20,203 nt of DNA from a virus: the IMG/VR virus record IMGVR_UViG_3300025141_001014, positions 1 to 20,203 of that record; one strand, 5' to 3'. Both the position numbers and the translations under genes were made by a program. The notes under the pieces are model-generated. The model had not been told where the DNA came from. It saw only the letters and a program-made list of their open reading frames with translations, and made no database searches. Positions within the stretch are counted from its first letter, which is position 1. The number at the start of each line of letters is the position of its first letter. This document shows, one piece after another, positions 10,934 through 17,158 of the stretch.

Positions 10934-11112
10934 GTAATGTAGTATTAACTAGGAAAGACTTCAGAGCTTATGCAGAAGTGCGAAAGAGTGGACTGTATAA
11001 TATGTTTGATACAAGAGCTAGAGAGATGACACATCTTTCAAAAGAGCAATGGGTAGAGATTATGAAACAATATACAGCTTTAGAGAATAAATATAAGGAG
11101 AATAAAGAATGA
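10930..11112 (+). CDS. Small phage protein with GLYNMFD motif
   Basis: 60 residues, charged and helical. The segment KSGLYNMFDTRAREM (19-33) resembles a short motif common in small phage proteins (S-G-x-x-N-M-F-D), whose function is unknown to me. It is coupled at both ends by ATGA overlaps (10930-10933 and 11109-11112), so it forms one translational unit with its neighbours. Confidence 0.6.
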   Translation: MSNVVLTRKDFRAYAEVRKSGLYNMFDTRAREMTHLSKEQWVEIMKQYTALENKYKENKE

Positions 11113-11522
11113 AGTATCAACAAGGAGATGTATTATTTATCAAGTCAAATAGAGAAGTTGAACATGATAATAATAGAGACAGTTCAAGTATCAGACTTGG
11201 TCAGTATACAAAAGCAAGTAAGAATGATGATCCTGTAGATGGTAAGACAACTGTAGCATTAGGTGAAGGTACAGGTCATAGTCATACATTTTATAAAAGT
11301 GATAATCCTGATGTAGTTGTAAATACATATGGTTCTCTTGCTGGTGTAATTGGATTAGGAGATGTTCCTATGTATGTAGAGGTAAAAGCAAAGCCTGAGA
11401 AATTTGCTATCATTAAGCATGAAGAACATAAACCTCTTAGCTTGCCACCTGGTATGTATAGAACTAGGATAGTAAAGGAGTTTGATCATCTTTCACAAAG
11501 AACAAGAAATGTGGTAGACTGA
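11109..11522 (+). CDS. Conserved phage/bacterial protein with GHSH and HEEH motifs
   Basis: 137 residues, beta-rich. Motifs in order: QQGDVLF (4-10), ALGEGTGHSHTF (50-61), IIKHEEHKPLSLPPGMYR (101-118), then a C-terminal EFDH..R..VVD. This layout (QGDVL, GE-x-TGH-x-H, HEEH-x-P-x-x-LP-x-G-x-YR) is one I recall from a widespread uncharacterised family that often sits next to a DUF6745-type gene, as seems to be the case here. The paired histidines could bind a metal in a barrel fold (inference). The ATG overlaps the previous stop and its own stop overlaps the next start by one base (TGATG), indicating coupled expression with its partner. Confidence 0.7.
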   Translation: MKYQQGDVLFIKSNREVEHDNNRDSSSIRLGQYTKASKNDDPVDGKTTVALGEGTGHSHTFYKSDNPDVVVNTYGSLAGVIGLGDVPMYVEVKAKPEKFAIIKHEEHKPLSLPPGMYRTRIVKEFDHLSQRTRNVVD

Positions 11523-12520
11523 TGGCTATGAATTTGTGTTACAATGAATCAAATGCTAGTATAGTAGAGGATTTACTACACTTTGGTAAGATTGGAGATT
11601 GTAAAGTTCTCTATGGTGTTTATCAGAATCACACATCATACTATGGATTTATGTTTGTTAAGTCTACTAAAAGCTTAGTAAAGATATATTCTATTTATAG
11701 AGGATTTATACATAATGATAGTTTTAATAATAGTATAGCTGAGTTTAGAAAGAGTAGTAAAGATAATGGTGGAGGAGTGATCAAATGGATGCCAGCATTT
11801 ACTTATACTCACAGGTTACCAAGGAATAGACATAATGGTGGCACTGATTACACTTTTAGAGCATTTATATCTTTAGGTATAGTTATGCATATGGGTATTA
11901 AATGGATGAGAGGTGCTGAAATATGGGAATTCCAAGACACAGAAATAGCATCTATTAGAGAGAAAGGCTTTTCATTTGGACTTAACGGGAAACTGATTAG
12001 TCGAGTTCCTAAACAGTGTAAAAACTTATTTGAAGCTGCTAAAGAAGATCAAAGACAGGCGAAGAATAGGAATGCTAGAGCTAATTATGCTAATACAAGT
12101 ACTGTAGCAAAGGTTAGAAATGCTAGAGTAACTGGTGACTATAGTAAATTAGTACCACAAGATGTGTTTAAGCTTAAAAATGTGACTACAAGAACAGAAT
12201 TACTTGAACACTATGGACAAGATAAAGTTCTTGATAGTATAGATCATGATGTTATCCATAAAGATGAAATTGATGGAAGAAAGTATGAGTTATTAAGATT
12301 TTCTTTGCCTTTTCAGAGATTTGGACAAGATGATCCAGCATTAGCTACATATCTTAAGATGATCAATCCCTCTACAGGTGAGACATGTATTGAAGGTGTC
12401 CCTAATAATGTAGAAGGTTCTCCATGGTCTACTGCTATTGATATGAATTGTGTCAAAGATGCATTAAAGTGGAGAGATGGTGATGTTAAGTCTTATGATG
12501 TACCTCAAGTTTTAACATAG
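11522..12520 (+). CDS. Partner of the GHSH/HEEH protein; possible DUF6745-like C-terminus
   Basis: 332 residues. Residues 1-160 are aromatic and beta-rich with several His (TYTHRLPRNRHNGG). Residues ~165-205 are a Gln/Arg/Asn-rich linker (KEDQRQAKNRNARANYAN). Residues ~222-322 form a second domain: RTELLEHYGQDKVLDSI, then VIHKDEIDGRKYELLRF, then YLKMINPSTGETCIEGV, then ALKWRDGD. That order (short helix, D-x-x-G turn, V-N-P/S-T segment, VP, A-x-x-W at the end) is like the DUF6745-type family as I recall it. No biochemical role is known to me. It is the last gene of this unit; a clear terminator follows 18 bases after the stop. The double-domain make-up and linker suggest an RNA- or DNA-contacting protein, but this is inference. 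Confidence 0.6.
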   Translation: MAMNLCYNESNASIVEDLLHFGKIGDCKVLYGVYQNHTSYYGFMFVKSTKSLVKIYSIYRGFIHNDSFNNSIAEFRKSSKDNGGGVIKWMPAFTYTHRLPRNRHNGGTDYTFRAFISLGIVMHMGIKWMRGAEIWEFQDTEIASIREKGFSFGLNGKLISRVPKQCKNLFEAAKEDQRQAKNRNARANYANTSTVAKVRNARVTGDYSKLVPQDVFKLKNVTTRTELLEHYGQDKVLDSIDHDVIHKDEIDGRKYELLRFSLPFQRFGQDDPALATYLKMINPSTGETCIEGVPNNVEGSPWSTAIDMNCVKDALKWRDGDVKSYDVPQVLT

Positions 12521-12604: not shown

Positions 12605-12781
12605 ATGGATGATGAGCGTATTAACAACATTGTAGCTTCAATTTATATGAAGCTATATTTGGAGTATAGAGTTGCTGGGATAGGGAATTATACTAAAAAA
12701 GGAAGACTTGTTACGCAAGAAATCCTTGATATGTTCCAAAAAAGATTACAAAGTTATTTAATTAAAATAAAGGAGAAGTAA
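12605..12781 (+). CDS. Small 58-residue protein before the ATPase
   Basis: ATG at 12605 opens a 58-codon frame ending in TAA 12779-12781, immediately followed by the ATPase ATG. The protein is helical and basic: DDERINNIVASIYMKLYLEY, then a polar turn, then EILDMFQKRLQSYLIKIKEK. The ribosome binding site is poor (GGGG adjoining the ATG); the internal ATG at codon 15 is an alternative. It is the first gene after the terminator and its last codons supply the ribosome binding site of the next gene. Family not recognised. Confidence 0.55.
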   Translation: MDDERINNIVASIYMKLYLEYRVAGIGNYTKKGRLVTQEILDMFQKRLQSYLIKIKEK

Positions 12782-12784
12782 ATG
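12757..12784 (+). repeat. Left copy of the sequence flanking the ATPase gene
   Basis: TTTAATTAA (12757-12765), three extra bases, then AAGGAGAAGTAAATG (12770-12784). The same two blocks recur at the end of the ATPase gene (13510-13534) in the same frame, so the upstream gene and the ATPase both end KEK-stop followed by ATG. Part of the match is a ribosome binding site. Confidence 0.6.
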
Positions 12785-13531
12785 AAGAGAATACTTCTGT
12801 TTGACACCGAAGATGGGTCAAAAACTCTCGGTGGAGAGAGTAGTGTCCAGAAATTGTTTGGATGTCCACCACTTAAACCTGATTCATGGCAATCTTTTAG
12901 AGATACTTTAGCTTCCATATATGTGGATAAAAAGGTTGAAGTAGAAAAGAAGATTACACCTGACTTAGTAGTAAAAGAAATTCAAAGCAAAACCGTTCTA
13001 AAGAATGGTACTCAGATGGATGGGATTATAGTAGACTCATTTTCTGAATTGTCTAAGAAATTTCAAAGATCACTTACTGGTGCTGATGATAAGATGAAGT
13101 TACAGCAATGGGGAGTTTTGAAAGCAGGATTAGATAAATGTCTTGAGTTTATTATGAAGATACCTGGTGTTGTTGTTGCTACATGTCATACTAAGATACA
13201 GATCATGGATGATGGTAGTAATGAAGAGATTCCATATATTGATGGATCAACCAAAGATGATATATCTAAGTGGTTTGATTTTGTGTTCTATACTTTTACT
13301 AAGAAAGTTAAGGGTAAGGAACAGTATATGTGGAGAACCAGACACAGTGCAAGGTATGCTAATGCTAAAGACAGAACAAATCTATTGGATGATGAGATTC
13401 CTCAGGATTTTCAATTAGTATTAGAAGCTGCAAGGAAAAGAGAATTTGATAATTGTCGTATTCTTATTCTTGGTAAGGCTGGTACTGGTAAAACACAAAG
13501 TTTGTCTACTTTAATTAATAAGGAGAAGTAA
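12782..13531 (+). CDS. RecA-like ATPase (AAA_24/Sak4 type) with P-loop at the C-terminus
   Basis: 249 residues. The motif order is rotated relative to the family. The protein opens with KRILLFDTEDGSKTL (2-16), the strand that normally follows the Walker A helix. It continues with Walker B GIIVDSFSEL (81-90), a sensor-like strand VVVATCHTKI (130-139) and the usual terminal IPQDFQLVLEAA (206-217). Only then does it present Walker A, ILILGKAGTGKTQSLSTL (227-244), five residues before the stop. Joining the C-terminus to the N-terminus restores the canonical order and spacing. AAA_24/Sak4 proteins are phage single-strand annealing or replication-associated ATPases, often encoded beside an ssDNA-binding protein, as here. 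All nucleotide-binding motifs look intact, so an active permuted enzyme is likely. Start: ATG 12782 with AAGGAG at 6 bases; no earlier in-frame start provides a P-loop. Confidence 0.8.
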   Translation: MKRILLFDTEDGSKTLGGESSVQKLFGCPPLKPDSWQSFRDTLASIYVDKKVEVEKKITPDLVVKEIQSKTVLKNGTQMDGIIVDSFSELSKKFQRSLTGADDKMKLQQWGVLKAGLDKCLEFIMKIPGVVVATCHTKIQIMDDGSNEEIPYIDGSTKDDISKWFDFVFYTFTKKVKGKEQYMWRTRHSARYANAKDRTNLLDDEIPQDFQLVLEAARKREFDNCRILILGKAGTGKTQSLSTLINKEK

Positions 13532-13534
13532 ATG
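13510..13534 (+). repeat. Right copy of the sequence flanking the ATPase gene
   Basis: TTTAATTAA (13510-13518), one base, then AAGGAGAAGTAAATG (13520-13534). It matches 12757-12784 apart from a three-base length difference. It encodes the ATPase C-terminus LINKEK-stop and the next gene's ribosome binding site. Confidence 0.6.
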
Positions 13535-14056
13535 GCAATAAGAACAATGACAACTGGATCTGGAACTGGTGCTGATTTCAGTATTGGATGGAAAGATTTA
13601 GTTATTAAGAAGGCTGAGTATGGTGACTACAATGGTAAGAGATATCTAGATGTATGGTTTGAAGACTATCCAGATAACTTTAATTGTAGAGTATATGAAG
13701 CTGTTAATAGAAAGACCAAGGAAGAATTTCGTATATCTAATTGGTTTAGGTTCTCACAGTCTGGTATTCAAGAAGTACTTGATGATGGTACTGGTAAGCC
13801 TATAATTACATATGATGATGATGCTTCTTTGTTAGCAGGAATGCCTATAAATGTATATCTCTATAAAGAAGATGAGTATTCAAGAATATGGCGTGAACCA
13901 GCTCCAACAGCTGGAGAAGGAGAACATCTAACATTTACAGAAAAAGATGTTGCATATTGGAAGAGATCTGCTGAAGGTGGATTAAAGAGGTGGAATGATC
14001 AGAATGGTACAGTCACACAATCTAGTGAAGGGAATGCTTCTGCACCTCCTTTCTAG
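13532..14056 (+). CDS. Probable single-stranded DNA-binding protein
   Basis: 174 residues. The N-terminal ~115 residues alternate short strands with aromatic and basic residues (DFSIGWKDLVIKKAEYGDY, YLDVWFEDYP, ISNWFRFSQSG), consistent with an OB-fold. Residues ~122-140 are acidic and Pro/Gly-rich, and the tail is Ser/Gln/Asn-rich ending APPF, like the protein-binding tip of many SSBs (which commonly end in acidic residues plus PF). It starts at ATG 13532, directly at the ATPase stop. Sak4/AAA_24 ATPases are often paired with such proteins. No family signature is decisive; other replication accessory proteins remain possible. Confidence 0.6.
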   Translation: MAIRTMTTGSGTGADFSIGWKDLVIKKAEYGDYNGKRYLDVWFEDYPDNFNCRVYEAVNRKTKEEFRISNWFRFSQSGIQEVLDDGTGKPIITYDDDASLLAGMPINVYLYKEDEYSRIWREPAPTAGEGEHLTFTEKDVAYWKRSAEGGLKRWNDQNGTVTQSSEGNASAPPF

Positions 14057-14145: not shown

Positions 14146-15897
14146 ATGAATAAAGTAAAGATGATATACAAAGAATTCGCATTATCCTTATCTAACAGAC
14201 ATCACTTCTTTCCAGTAAGTAAAATATCTTCATTCTATGGTATAAACTCAGACACATTCATGTCTTTGTGGGATTATGATGAAGATGTAATTGAGTATGT
14301 TAAATCAAATAAAACATTATCAGGCTATAGAGGTAAACTTTATATGCCTGATGAGTTTATCCTTGATGTTGATGGAGCCAATATAGATCAGGCTAAACAG
14401 TTAACTCATGGATTAATAGATTTACTTAACATACCAATGCAAGTTTACTTCTCAGGAGAAAAGGGATTTCATATACATATATCAGGTACGGCTTTCAAGT
14501 GGGAGCCATGCAAAGACCTGAATCTAAGAGTAAAACATACACTTAAGAATTATGGTATATATGATTTCGCAGATCCTCTTGTTATAGATAAAGTAAGATT
14601 GATACGAATTCCTAACACAAAGAAGCTTTCCTCAGGCTATTGGAAAGTTCCAATAAAGATATCAGAAATAAATGATGTCAATATTGAATGGCTGCACACT
14701 AATGCAGTTAAGCCAAAGGATGACTTTGATTATCAAGAACTGGAAACCAATCCAATATTTGATGTATCGAAGAGTTTACCAAAGAGTAATGTAGCTGTAA
14801 AAGAACATGGTACAGCTCCCTTATCTAATGATTACATATGTATTCAAAGATTAATGGAGAATACTCCCTATGGATTTAGGCATAAGGCATCATTAACTCT
14901 TGGTTCACACTTAAGACAAAGGTATCCTGAAAGTGCGGTAAGAGCATTCATGGAACATTGGAGATCTAGTGTCTTAGATACCAGTGAATATCCATTTAAT
15001 ATAGAAGAGATGGAGACAATACTTCATTCTGTATACAATGCTAACAAAGGAGAAGGATATCATTTTGGATGTTTCTCTGAGGTTAAAGATAGAATGTGTT
15101 CACCTGATTGTAAGTTATATCAATCTAAGAAGCATATGTCTGAATCCAGTATAAGTGATCTGGAAGAAGAGCTAATCAAATTCTATGCTAGTGATAAGGA
15201 TCCTATAAATGTAGGTGAATTATATGGACAGCATTTCCCTATATACCCAGGAGAAACAGTGCTATTAACTGCACCTCCTGAGTCAATGAAATCAATGTTA
15301 TTACTAAATTGGTTACATGATTTAGAGAAGAAGTCTTACTTCATGGAATTTGAAATGTCCTCAAGACAAGTAGGGCAAAGGATGTCTATGATACACAATA
15401 ATTGGAATGAAGAACAGATGAAAGGTCATTACAAAGCTGGTAAGAATGGAATGCCTTCTATGGAACACATTAAGTTTGATTATCATAGCTGTTATCCTTG
15501 GGAAATAAAGAAAAGGTTAGAAGCAATACAGTTTGAACCTGAAGTAATCTATATTGATCATTGTGGTTTAATGAAATCTAGATTCAGAGATGAGATATCT
15601 AAAGATAAAGATATATCTGAAGGTATAATGAATCTTGCTAATGAAATTAATTGTGTTGTCATTGGTGTTTGGGAACTATCAAAGAATGCCTTTCAAAATG
15701 GTATTGATATAGCTTCACCAGCAGGTTCTTTTAGAGTATCATACAATGCTAATAAGATTCTTGCTTTAAAGCCTATTAGACCTAATGATAGTGGAAAGAT
15801 AGAATATCTTGAGCTTAGTACAATCAAAAACAGAGAACAGGAGAGAATGAATGTCAGATTAGAAGTAGATAAAAGGAGAACAGGACGAATAGTATGA
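14146..15897 (+). CDS. Primase-helicase (archaeo-eukaryotic primase fused to DnaB-like helicase)
   Basis: 583 residues. Residues ~60-190 are an AEP/PrimPol catalytic domain: FILDVDG with metal ligands D74 and D76, SGEKGFHIHI (103-112) with H109, and DKVRLIRIPNT (148-158). Residues ~225-325 resemble a PriL-type or PriCT module: C232, then GFRHKASLTLGSHL (243-256), then C309, C318 and C322, a possible Fe-S or zinc site. Residues ~355-583 are a RecA/DnaB-like helicase: Walker A APPESMKS (376-383), the FEMSS helix (E403) and Walker B VIYIDHCG (467-474). It would prime and unwind DNA at the phage fork. The Walker A is unusual: Ala and Met replace the two conserved Gly residues while K382 and S383 remain. 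Upstream hairpins may gate translation. Confidence 0.85.
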   Translation: MNKVKMIYKEFALSLSNRHHFFPVSKISSFYGINSDTFMSLWDYDEDVIEYVKSNKTLSGYRGKLYMPDEFILDVDGANIDQAKQLTHGLIDLLNIPMQVYFSGEKGFHIHISGTAFKWEPCKDLNLRVKHTLKNYGIYDFADPLVIDKVRLIRIPNTKKLSSGYWKVPIKISEINDVNIEWLHTNAVKPKDDFDYQELETNPIFDVSKSLPKSNVAVKEHGTAPLSNDYICIQRLMENTPYGFRHKASLTLGSHLRQRYPESAVRAFMEHWRSSVLDTSEYPFNIEEMETILHSVYNANKGEGYHFGCFSEVKDRMCSPDCKLYQSKKHMSESSISDLEEELIKFYASDKDPINVGELYGQHFPIYPGETVLLTAPPESMKSMLLLNWLHDLEKKSYFMEFEMSSRQVGQRMSMIHNNWNEEQMKGHYKAGKNGMPSMEHIKFDYHSCYPWEIKKRLEAIQFEPEVIYIDHCGLMKSRFRDEISKDKDISEGIMNLANEINCVVIGVWELSKNAFQNGIDIASPAGSFRVSYNANKILALKPIRPNDSGKIEYLELSTIKNREQERMNVRLEVDKRRTGRIV

Positions 15898-16382
15898 AGA
15901 GAAAAATGAGTGAGATAACAACAGACATAATGTCAATGCAGATGGGACTTACATTTAATGAAGACGAATTTGATGTACAGCTTAACGAGTTATTTGCTGA
16001 GTTGTATGACAAAGAAGATGGTATCTATTGGCTATATAAAGATAATGATAAAAAGATAGAGTTAGTCAAGGAACATATGGATAAATGTAAGAGAATCATG
16101 AACATGATTAAGAATGGCCAAGAAAGTATTAAAGGTATGGTCATGGCAAGACATGAATCTGTAGGTACACTACCTAAAAATTCTGTATTTAATCCAGTTA
16201 GTATAAGGAATTCTAATGGTGCAGTAGATGCATATGATGAAGACGTAATACCAGAAGAATACTTTATTACTGTTGAAACTAAGAGATTAGATAAGAAAAG
16301 AATGGTAGAGGAAATGAAAGCAGGTATAAAAATACCTGGAGCAAGGCTGGTAAAGAAGCCTTTCGTAAACGGTTTAAAATAA
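15894..16382 (+). CDS. Gp157-family phage protein
   Basis: 162 residues. The C-terminal part matches the Siphovirus Gp157 pattern: short strand PVSIRNSNGAV (101-111), DEDVIPEEYF (115-124), DKKRMVEEMKAG (133-144) and IPGARLVKK (147-155). The N-terminal half is helical (DVQLNELFAELYDKE, then the RIMNMIK region) and somewhat degenerate. Gp157 proteins are common in phage replication/recombination operons; their exact job is unclear, though a link to resistance against other phages has been proposed for the Streptococcus family member. The ATG overlaps the helicase stop (ATGA). Confidence 0.75.
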   Translation: MKRKMSEITTDIMSMQMGLTFNEDEFDVQLNELFAELYDKEDGIYWLYKDNDKKIELVKEHMDKCKRIMNMIKNGQESIKGMVMARHESVGTLPKNSVFNPVSIRNSNGAVDAYDEDVIPEEYFITVETKRLDKKRMVEEMKAGIKIPGARLVKKPFVNGLK

Positions 16383-16393
16383 AGGAGAATAGA

Positions 16394-17158
16394 ATGGTAA
16401 AATCCACAATTAATTTCGATGATTTTAGCCTTATAAAAGCTAACAGACCAGTTGACTGGAATAAGATTACTAGAATGAGAAAGGAAATTAGAAGAAAGAA
16501 TCTTACTAAAGAGTACCCTATTTGTGTAAATAGTAAAACTGCTAGTAAGAGAAGGTATGGACTAGATGGTACTAACATGGGTGTTATTGATGGTCAACAT
16601 AGGTATATATCTTGTAAGTTAGAAAAGGTACCAATGTATTACCAAGTAGTAGATACTTTAACACTTAGTGATATACCAAGAGCAGCAGCGGTCCAAAGTA
16701 GTTGGAAAATGACTGATTTCATTCACTATTATGCTACATTAGGTGTGCGGTCGTATTTGTTATTTAAAAGTTATATGGAAAGAAATAACTTTGCTCCATC
16801 ATCTACATTAACAATATTATGTGGTGATAGAGGAGGACATGTTCTTACTAAACTAAAGAATGGCGAATTAGAAATCACAAGAAACTGGACTGTAGCAAAT
16901 GCTTTTGCTGATGCAATAACAGAACTTGGTGAGTATATTGCATTCAACAAGCAAGCTAGATTTTTAGAAGCATATATGATATGTTTTGCAAATCCAGAGT
17001 TTAGTCACAATAGAATGATCACAAAACTTGAGTATTTGTCATCTAAAATGAATAGAGAGCCTGATACTTGGAGTCACTTGGAACAGCTTGAGAATATCTA
17101 TAATTACAATACAAAGAAGAAGATCAAGCTTAACACAGTTAAACGTGTAACATTCTGA
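16394..17158 (+). CDS. ParB-like (sulfiredoxin-fold) protein
   Basis: 254 residues. ATG 16394 follows AAGGAGAATAGA. Residues ~8-85 follow the ParB N-terminal layout: KANRPVDWNKITRMRKEI, a PICV strand, then GVIDGQHRYISC (63-74) with the DGQHR box, then a short strand (MYYQVVD). Residues ~100-254 are helical and lack a clear partition-type helix-turn-helix. Phage proteins with this domain include nucleases and DNA-binding regulators; some ParB-fold proteins bind CTP. It lies between Gp157- and DUF932-type genes in a replication operon. Specific activity unknown. The stop overlaps the next start (TGATG). Confidence 0.72.
   Translation: MVKSTINFDDFSLIKANRPVDWNKITRMRKEIRRKNLTKEYPICVNSKTASKRRYGLDGTNMGVIDGQHRYISCKLEKVPMYYQVVDTLTLSDIPRAAAVQSSWKMTDFIHYYATLGVRSYLLFKSYMERNNFAPSSTLTILCGDRGGHVLTKLKNGELEITRNWTVANAFADAITELGEYIAFNKQARFLEAYMICFANPEFSHNRMITKLEYLSSKMNREPDTWSHLEQLENIYNYNTKKKIKLNTVKRVTF

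Follow-up and report, generated by a model that had tools for sequence, protein, structure and literature searches.

The gene at positions 12782-13531 (plus strand) of the analysed window very likely encodes a naturally circularly permuted ATPase of the Sak4 type (RecA/Rad51 superfamily, AAA_24). The window is the whole of a 20,203 bp linear virus sequence of metagenomic origin (IMGVR_UViG_3300025141_001014). The gene was assigned on the basis of its open reading frame, whose ATG follows a good Shine-Dalgarno sequence, and of profile matches of the 249 amino acid product. A first-pass annotation, made from the sequence alone, had proposed a circularly permuted AAA_24/Sak4-type ATPase, in which Walker A (residues 231-238) comes after Walker B (81-86) and the sensor strand, and FDTEDG lies at the amino end. 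The motif order was confirmed by the ORF and the motif positions, and the permutation by HMM rotation, by the motif order in 122 of 122 loci and by an AF2 model.

The polypeptide begins with the strand that corresponds to beta-2 (ILLFDTEDG, 12791-12817, plus strand as are all features described here). FDTEDGSKTL occupies residues 7-16; D8, E10 and G12 are invariant, and E10 is the residue that we take to be the catalytic glutamate ending beta-2 in RecA/Rad51-type ATPases. Further downstream are Walker B (GIIVDS, residues 81-86, 13022-13039), the family motif MKLQQWG (residues 105-111, 13094-13114), whose counterpart in normal-order Sak4 is MKLQDWG, the sensor strand region (13169-13198, with invariant H136; predicted strand, residues 130-141) and the motif PYIDGSTKDDISKWFDFV (residues 151-168, 13232-13285), which aligns with the PxxxGKxxxEIxxFFxFVG region of normal Sak4. 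Only after the E10 strand, Walker B (D85) and the sensor region comes Walker A (GKAGTGKT, residues 231-238, 13472-13495), which includes columns that are invariant across relatives. It is part of a relocated beta-1/P-loop/alpha-1 segment (residues 221-249, 13442-13528), recognized by HMM rotation and in the AF2 model. In the 51-sequence family alignment G231, G234, G236, K237, T238, E10 and D85 are all invariant. A second intact P-loop on the N-terminal side, which according to the first-pass annotation would have refuted the permutation, was found neither in the protein nor within 900 nt upstream of the gene.

Pfam AAA_24 matched residues 2-198 with profile positions 23-194 (E 1.6e-16), leaving the 22 N-terminal profile positions, which bear the P-loop, unmatched. 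When residues 221-249 were placed first, one match extending over profile positions 2-194 was obtained, and the score rose from 61.1 to 73.6 bits; both values exceed the curated cut-off of 27 bits. Of the Sak4-like PHROG families, PHROG_124 matched the protein at E 2.2e-24, and PHROG_2872 matched only residues 226-247 with its positions 4-25, which represent the N-terminal P-loop of normal Sak4. An HMM built on 18 normal-order Sak4 proteins (11 from virus contigs and 7 from named phages) aligned with the native protein as two pieces in exchanged order, namely HMM positions 35-212 with residues 3-204 and positions 9-31 with residues 221-243. All in silico rotations were scored with this HMM: the best, cut at residues 207-218, gave a single piece (HMM positions 10-212) and 105.9 bits, compared to 83.6 bits for the native order. 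The swapped two-piece match was seen in 51 of 51 full-length relatives, and normal Sak4 proteins rotated in silico at the same loop, serving as positive control, produced the mirror-image signature. In tblastn searches of 50,697 phage records the native-order protein found no match, whereas the rotated query was aligned across the junction with Sak4/RecA-like phage genes (E 6e-4). The strict criterion for circular permutation, namely that both parts are homologous to the normal-order family, are swapped and occur in one copy each, is thus met. Of the features defining Sak4/AAA_24 membership the protein has the profile score, an intact Walker A and a RecA-like fold, and lacks the canonical motif order; because Walker A is the last of the motifs, it must be regarded as a permuted variant and not as an ordinary member of the family.

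Relatives were collected from virus contigs using the neighbouring primase-helicase as bait. In relatives whose primase-helicases are 90, 88, 77 and 45-48% identical, the permuted gene was present wherever the contig reached it, and two further family scans of virus contigs returned 80 loci each. The P-loop was C-terminal in 122 of the 122 three-prime-complete loci and N-terminal in none; these loci represent 63 distinct core sequences, some contigs having been fetched more than once. The next relatives, at 23-33% identity, all have the normal order. In the P-loop segment dN was lower than dS, indicating purifying selection. No members of the permuted family were detected in the genome contig collection or in the plasmid collection that were scanned, and four family members used in native order as queries against isolate phages gave weak partial matches to normal Sak4 or none.

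The protein was modelled in its native order by AF2. With the 51-sequence alignment a single domain was predicted (pLDDT 91.0, pTM 0.89); with only seven sequences pLDDT was 72.6. In the model residues 225-231 form a strand within a sheet, the P-loop and a helix come next in the chain, and residues 221-240 have pLDDT values of 93-95. The best match among solved structures was the Sak4 of 8rc5 (Z 12.6, rmsd 3.0 A over 165 residues), with model residues 1-220 aligned to residues 48-258 of the 8rc5 chain, i.e. from just behind the P-loop of that protein. Judged by sequence alignment and our reading of the numbering, the 8rc5 P-loop probably precedes residue 48, provided that the numbering of the entry omits the 20-residue tag. 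The next solved matches were Rad51, RadA and RecA. In this search (VIA-align) residues 1-209 were well covered and the C-terminal segment was barely tested. In BFVD the best match was an unnamed 248 amino acid protein, A0A516LUR7 (TM 0.89/0.90, 39% identity), which is likely to be a member of the permuted family deposited without a name; normal Sak4 proteins scored TM values of about 0.6. A sequence search of the PDB (query A2) returned P-loop fragments only. Sequence and model show that the chain starts at beta-2 and that beta-1 stands near its end, followed by the P-loop and the first helix. The two ends are inferred to meet in the fold, so that K237/T238, E10 and D85 may form one ATP site. 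This closure is inferred from sequence, DSSP, pTM and homology, without atom-level contacts; contact of the P-loop with E10 and D85, which bears on the annotation's assumption that GKAGTGKT lies next to the FDTEDG strand, was not measured.

The new amino end is tightly fixed in the family, the initiating Met lying 8-11 residues ahead of the catalytic-type Glu, and the new carboxy end is variable, 7 to 77 residues after GK[ST]; given this variable length, the tail may possibly be flexible. The former C-terminal helix, PQDFQLVLEAARKR, joins beta-1 (CRILILG) through a short linker. As inferred from the alignments, the arrangement fits fusion of the old termini, the old C-terminal helix being linked to beta-1 by a few residues, and opening of the loop that links the P-loop helix to beta-2, where the new ends lie. 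The first-pass annotation had stated that joining the ends recreates the normal order and spacing exactly. The order held and the spacing did not: the rejoined distance from GKT to the catalytic-like Glu is 21 residues, as opposed to about 15-18 in most normal Sak4 proteins, a length that is still plausible for a loop.

The usual route to circular permutation is tandem duplication followed by trimming. We envisage, as the least certain part of the explanation, that the permutation had a single origin in a tandem duplication of a sak4 gene, with subsequent loss of the outer parts, and was then kept by selection. Neither a duplication intermediate nor a P-loop remnant was found, the upstream 900 nt included. 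The clean split in identity makes a single origin of the permuted clade likely without proving it. In the trees a very long branch carried the normal-order Sak4 proteins of Schitoviridae and was attached either within the permuted clade or next to it, a placement weakened by the long branches; these proteins have a GK[ST]xSLxxL helix in common with the clade. By HMM score the nearest normal-order relatives are marine Sak4 proteins of the L076 type and an Oceanotoga phage protein.

An exact 15 bp repeat at 12770 (12770-12784) and 13520 was considered as a possible scar of the permutation and was rejected. The repeat arises because the Shine-Dalgarno sequence of the ssb gene (13520-13525) lies within the final codons of the upstream permuted gene; both copies read as Shine-Dalgarno sequences within gene ends, and relative L003 has the copy at the start of the gene and not the one at its end. 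Without the Shine-Dalgarno sequences the gene flanks aligned no better than shuffles (0.43).

Directly downstream lies an SSB-like gene (13532-14056, 174 amino acids, tail ..SAPPF), identified by its position, its tip and weak SSB-family matches. The same gene, coding for 170-205 amino acids, occupies this place in every locus that extends far enough, and is followed by a gene for a PrimS-like primase fused to a DnaB-like helicase (14146-15897, by profile matches). Some of the ssb-like neighbours match PHROG SSB families weakly (best E 2.4e-4). The family's ssb-like proteins usually end in SSB-type tips (DIPF, DLPF, EPPF); in L025, L033, L034, L044, L049, L035, L037, L046 and L052 the tips are of the DPWD or DDW(D/E) type instead of PF, and the partner contact may be changed there. 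Normal sak4 genes also precede ssb in Schitoviridae, Queuovirinae and other phages. Sak4 of HK620 is an ATP-dependent single-strand annealase, and its stimulation by the cognate SSB requires the NDYPPF tail of that SSB (PMC5928155). Considering the ssb neighbour with its SSB-type tips and the precedents of the HK620 and 52A Sak4 proteins, an SSB-assisted strand-annealing role is proposed. The permuted protein would load on phage ssDNA coated by the SSB of the neighbouring gene, through the acidic -PF tip, and would anneal complementary strands ATP-dependently in the manner of HK620 Sak4, in support of recombination and replication of the phage. It is likely that the protein is a working ATP-dependent annealase; annealing and stimulation by SSB are inferred with support from the gene neighbourhood only, and there is no biochemistry on any member. 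The explanation as a whole, a Sak4-like fold permuted by a cut in the loop from the P-loop helix to beta-2 and acting as an ATP-dependent ssDNA-annealing recombinase, is likewise probable.

Among the rival explanations the one that survives best accepts the same permuted fold and assigns it another role, namely SSB-dependent loading of helicase or primase on behalf of the adjacent primase-helicase. In its favour, ssb and the primase-helicase are constant neighbours, and a separate helicase loader was not recognized in any of the scanned genes. Against it, the protein belongs by its family matches with Sak4 annealing proteins, a Sak4 SSAP is its nearest solved structure, and sak4-ssb pairs of other phages show the same layout, which makes this role unlikely. 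According to a second rival the function of an ATPase-driven recombinase was lost, and the P-loop peptide, attached to a Sak4 body devoid of a P-loop, serves to sense nucleotide or SSB, or is paired with a neighbouring subunit in trans by domain swap. The C-terminal segment is indeed short and its tail variable in length, and a monomer model cannot separate cis from trans closure. We nevertheless consider this very unlikely: all 51 sequences agree in the P-loop, E10 and D85, the segment aligns to the beta-1/P-loop/alpha-1 piece that is absent from the body, and the monomer was predicted with high confidence in the P-loop segment as well as overall (see above). Finally, a local misassembly, chimera or frameshift mimicking permutation, which the 20-kb linear metagenomic source and the exact direct repeat at both gene ends (spacing 750 bp) might suggest and which the first-pass annotation had named as a possible refutation, is all but excluded, since the same order is found on dozens of independent contigs of 48-90% identity from many samples, and the repeat consists of Shine-Dalgarno and stop/start sequences and has no copy at the gene end in the closest relative, L003.

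The permuted, ATP-dependent annealase that we favour has its homologous core in common with the Sak4-like SSAPs (PHROG_124, PF13479; HK620 Sak4, phage 52A Sak4 in 8rc5), as well as the MKLQDWG and P..G..EI..FF motifs, the ATP motifs and an adjacent ssb with an SSB-type tail. It differs from them in that the P-loop strand and helix, N-terminal there, are C-terminal in the permuted family, which starts at beta-2. With the Rad51/RadA/RecA core it shares the order of Glu strand, Walker B and sensor (structural match with Z 8-10 over residues 1-209), whereas the 249 amino acid protein is permuted and lacks the N-terminal polymerisation domain. The permuted P-loop GTPases (RsgA/YjeQ-YlqF, cpRAS) are similar in being P-loop NTPases with permuted motifs and a presumably kept fold; in cpRAS, G1-G2 stand behind the rest of the domain (PMC2430557). 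They belong, however, to the GTPase branch, have roles in ribosome assembly or unknown ones and are cut elsewhere, whereas the permuted Sak4 is cut directly behind the P-loop helix, before beta-2. The Pfam matches of the permuted protein include no GTPase family, and its homologues are Sak4/RecA-like. Permuted DNA methylases are reported to occur in phages. No permuted RecA/Rad51-superfamily or Sak4 recombinase was found in the open-access literature searched (most subscription papers and preprints were outside its scope), and the collections of isolate phages and plasmids that were searched yielded none either. Within that literature, the initial view that permuted P-loop GTPases are known and that a permuted RecA-like phage recombinase would be unusual held.

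RecA/Rad51-type recombinases work as assemblies that hold ATP between adjoining subunits. The first-pass annotation had suggested that ring assembly may differ in the permuted protein; this wording remains uncertain, as the one Sak4 with a solved structure, that of 52A, assembles with Stl2 into filaments (PMC11846896), and the HK620 protein elutes as a monomer (PMC5928155). We regard as fairly probable a bolder reading: that this is the first natural circularly permuted member of the RecA/Rad51 superfamily, an old and conserved lineage among phages with an ATP site made from both chain ends. Nucleotide binding may, on this reading, couple closure of the termini to filament or SSB contacts in a way unlike normal Sak4 or Rad51. 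That it is the first cannot be claimed with certainty. A natural cut right behind the P-loop helix means that this connection is dispensable in the RecA/Rad51 superfamily, and the permuted Sak4 constitutes a natural experiment on the connections needed by the ATP site and the filament interface. With free termini at the active site, the sequence set should be useful for engineering phage annealases. Annotation relying on motif order misses such genes, as did the native-order tblastn search; because such searches are blind to them, permuted P-loop ATPases may be under-counted.

Several features of the surrounding replication genes were also noted. The protein encoded at 14146-15897 is a fusion of an archaeal/eukaryotic-type primase small-subunit-like domain to a DnaB-like helicase, and the nearest relatives in named phages, at about 25% identity, come from phages of Thermus, Moorella, Bacillus and Vibrio. 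Around residue 375 of the fusion protein the Walker A motif of the helicase part has Met for the expected Gly before Lys (APPESMKS; APPKSMKT in L008); this is kept in relatives and is unusual for an active DnaB. A Gp157/Mu Gam-like gene (15894-16382, profile matches) is a frequent neighbour, located between ssb and the primase-helicase in L020 and L038. A ParB-like gene (16394-17158, PHROG_12305) in the replication block is present in L002/L003 and was not seen in L004 and L012-L014. Two genes of unknown function (11109-11522, 137 amino acids, and 11522-12520, 332 amino acids), located upstream of the permuted gene, are conserved in the closest relatives L003, L004, L012-L014 and L065.
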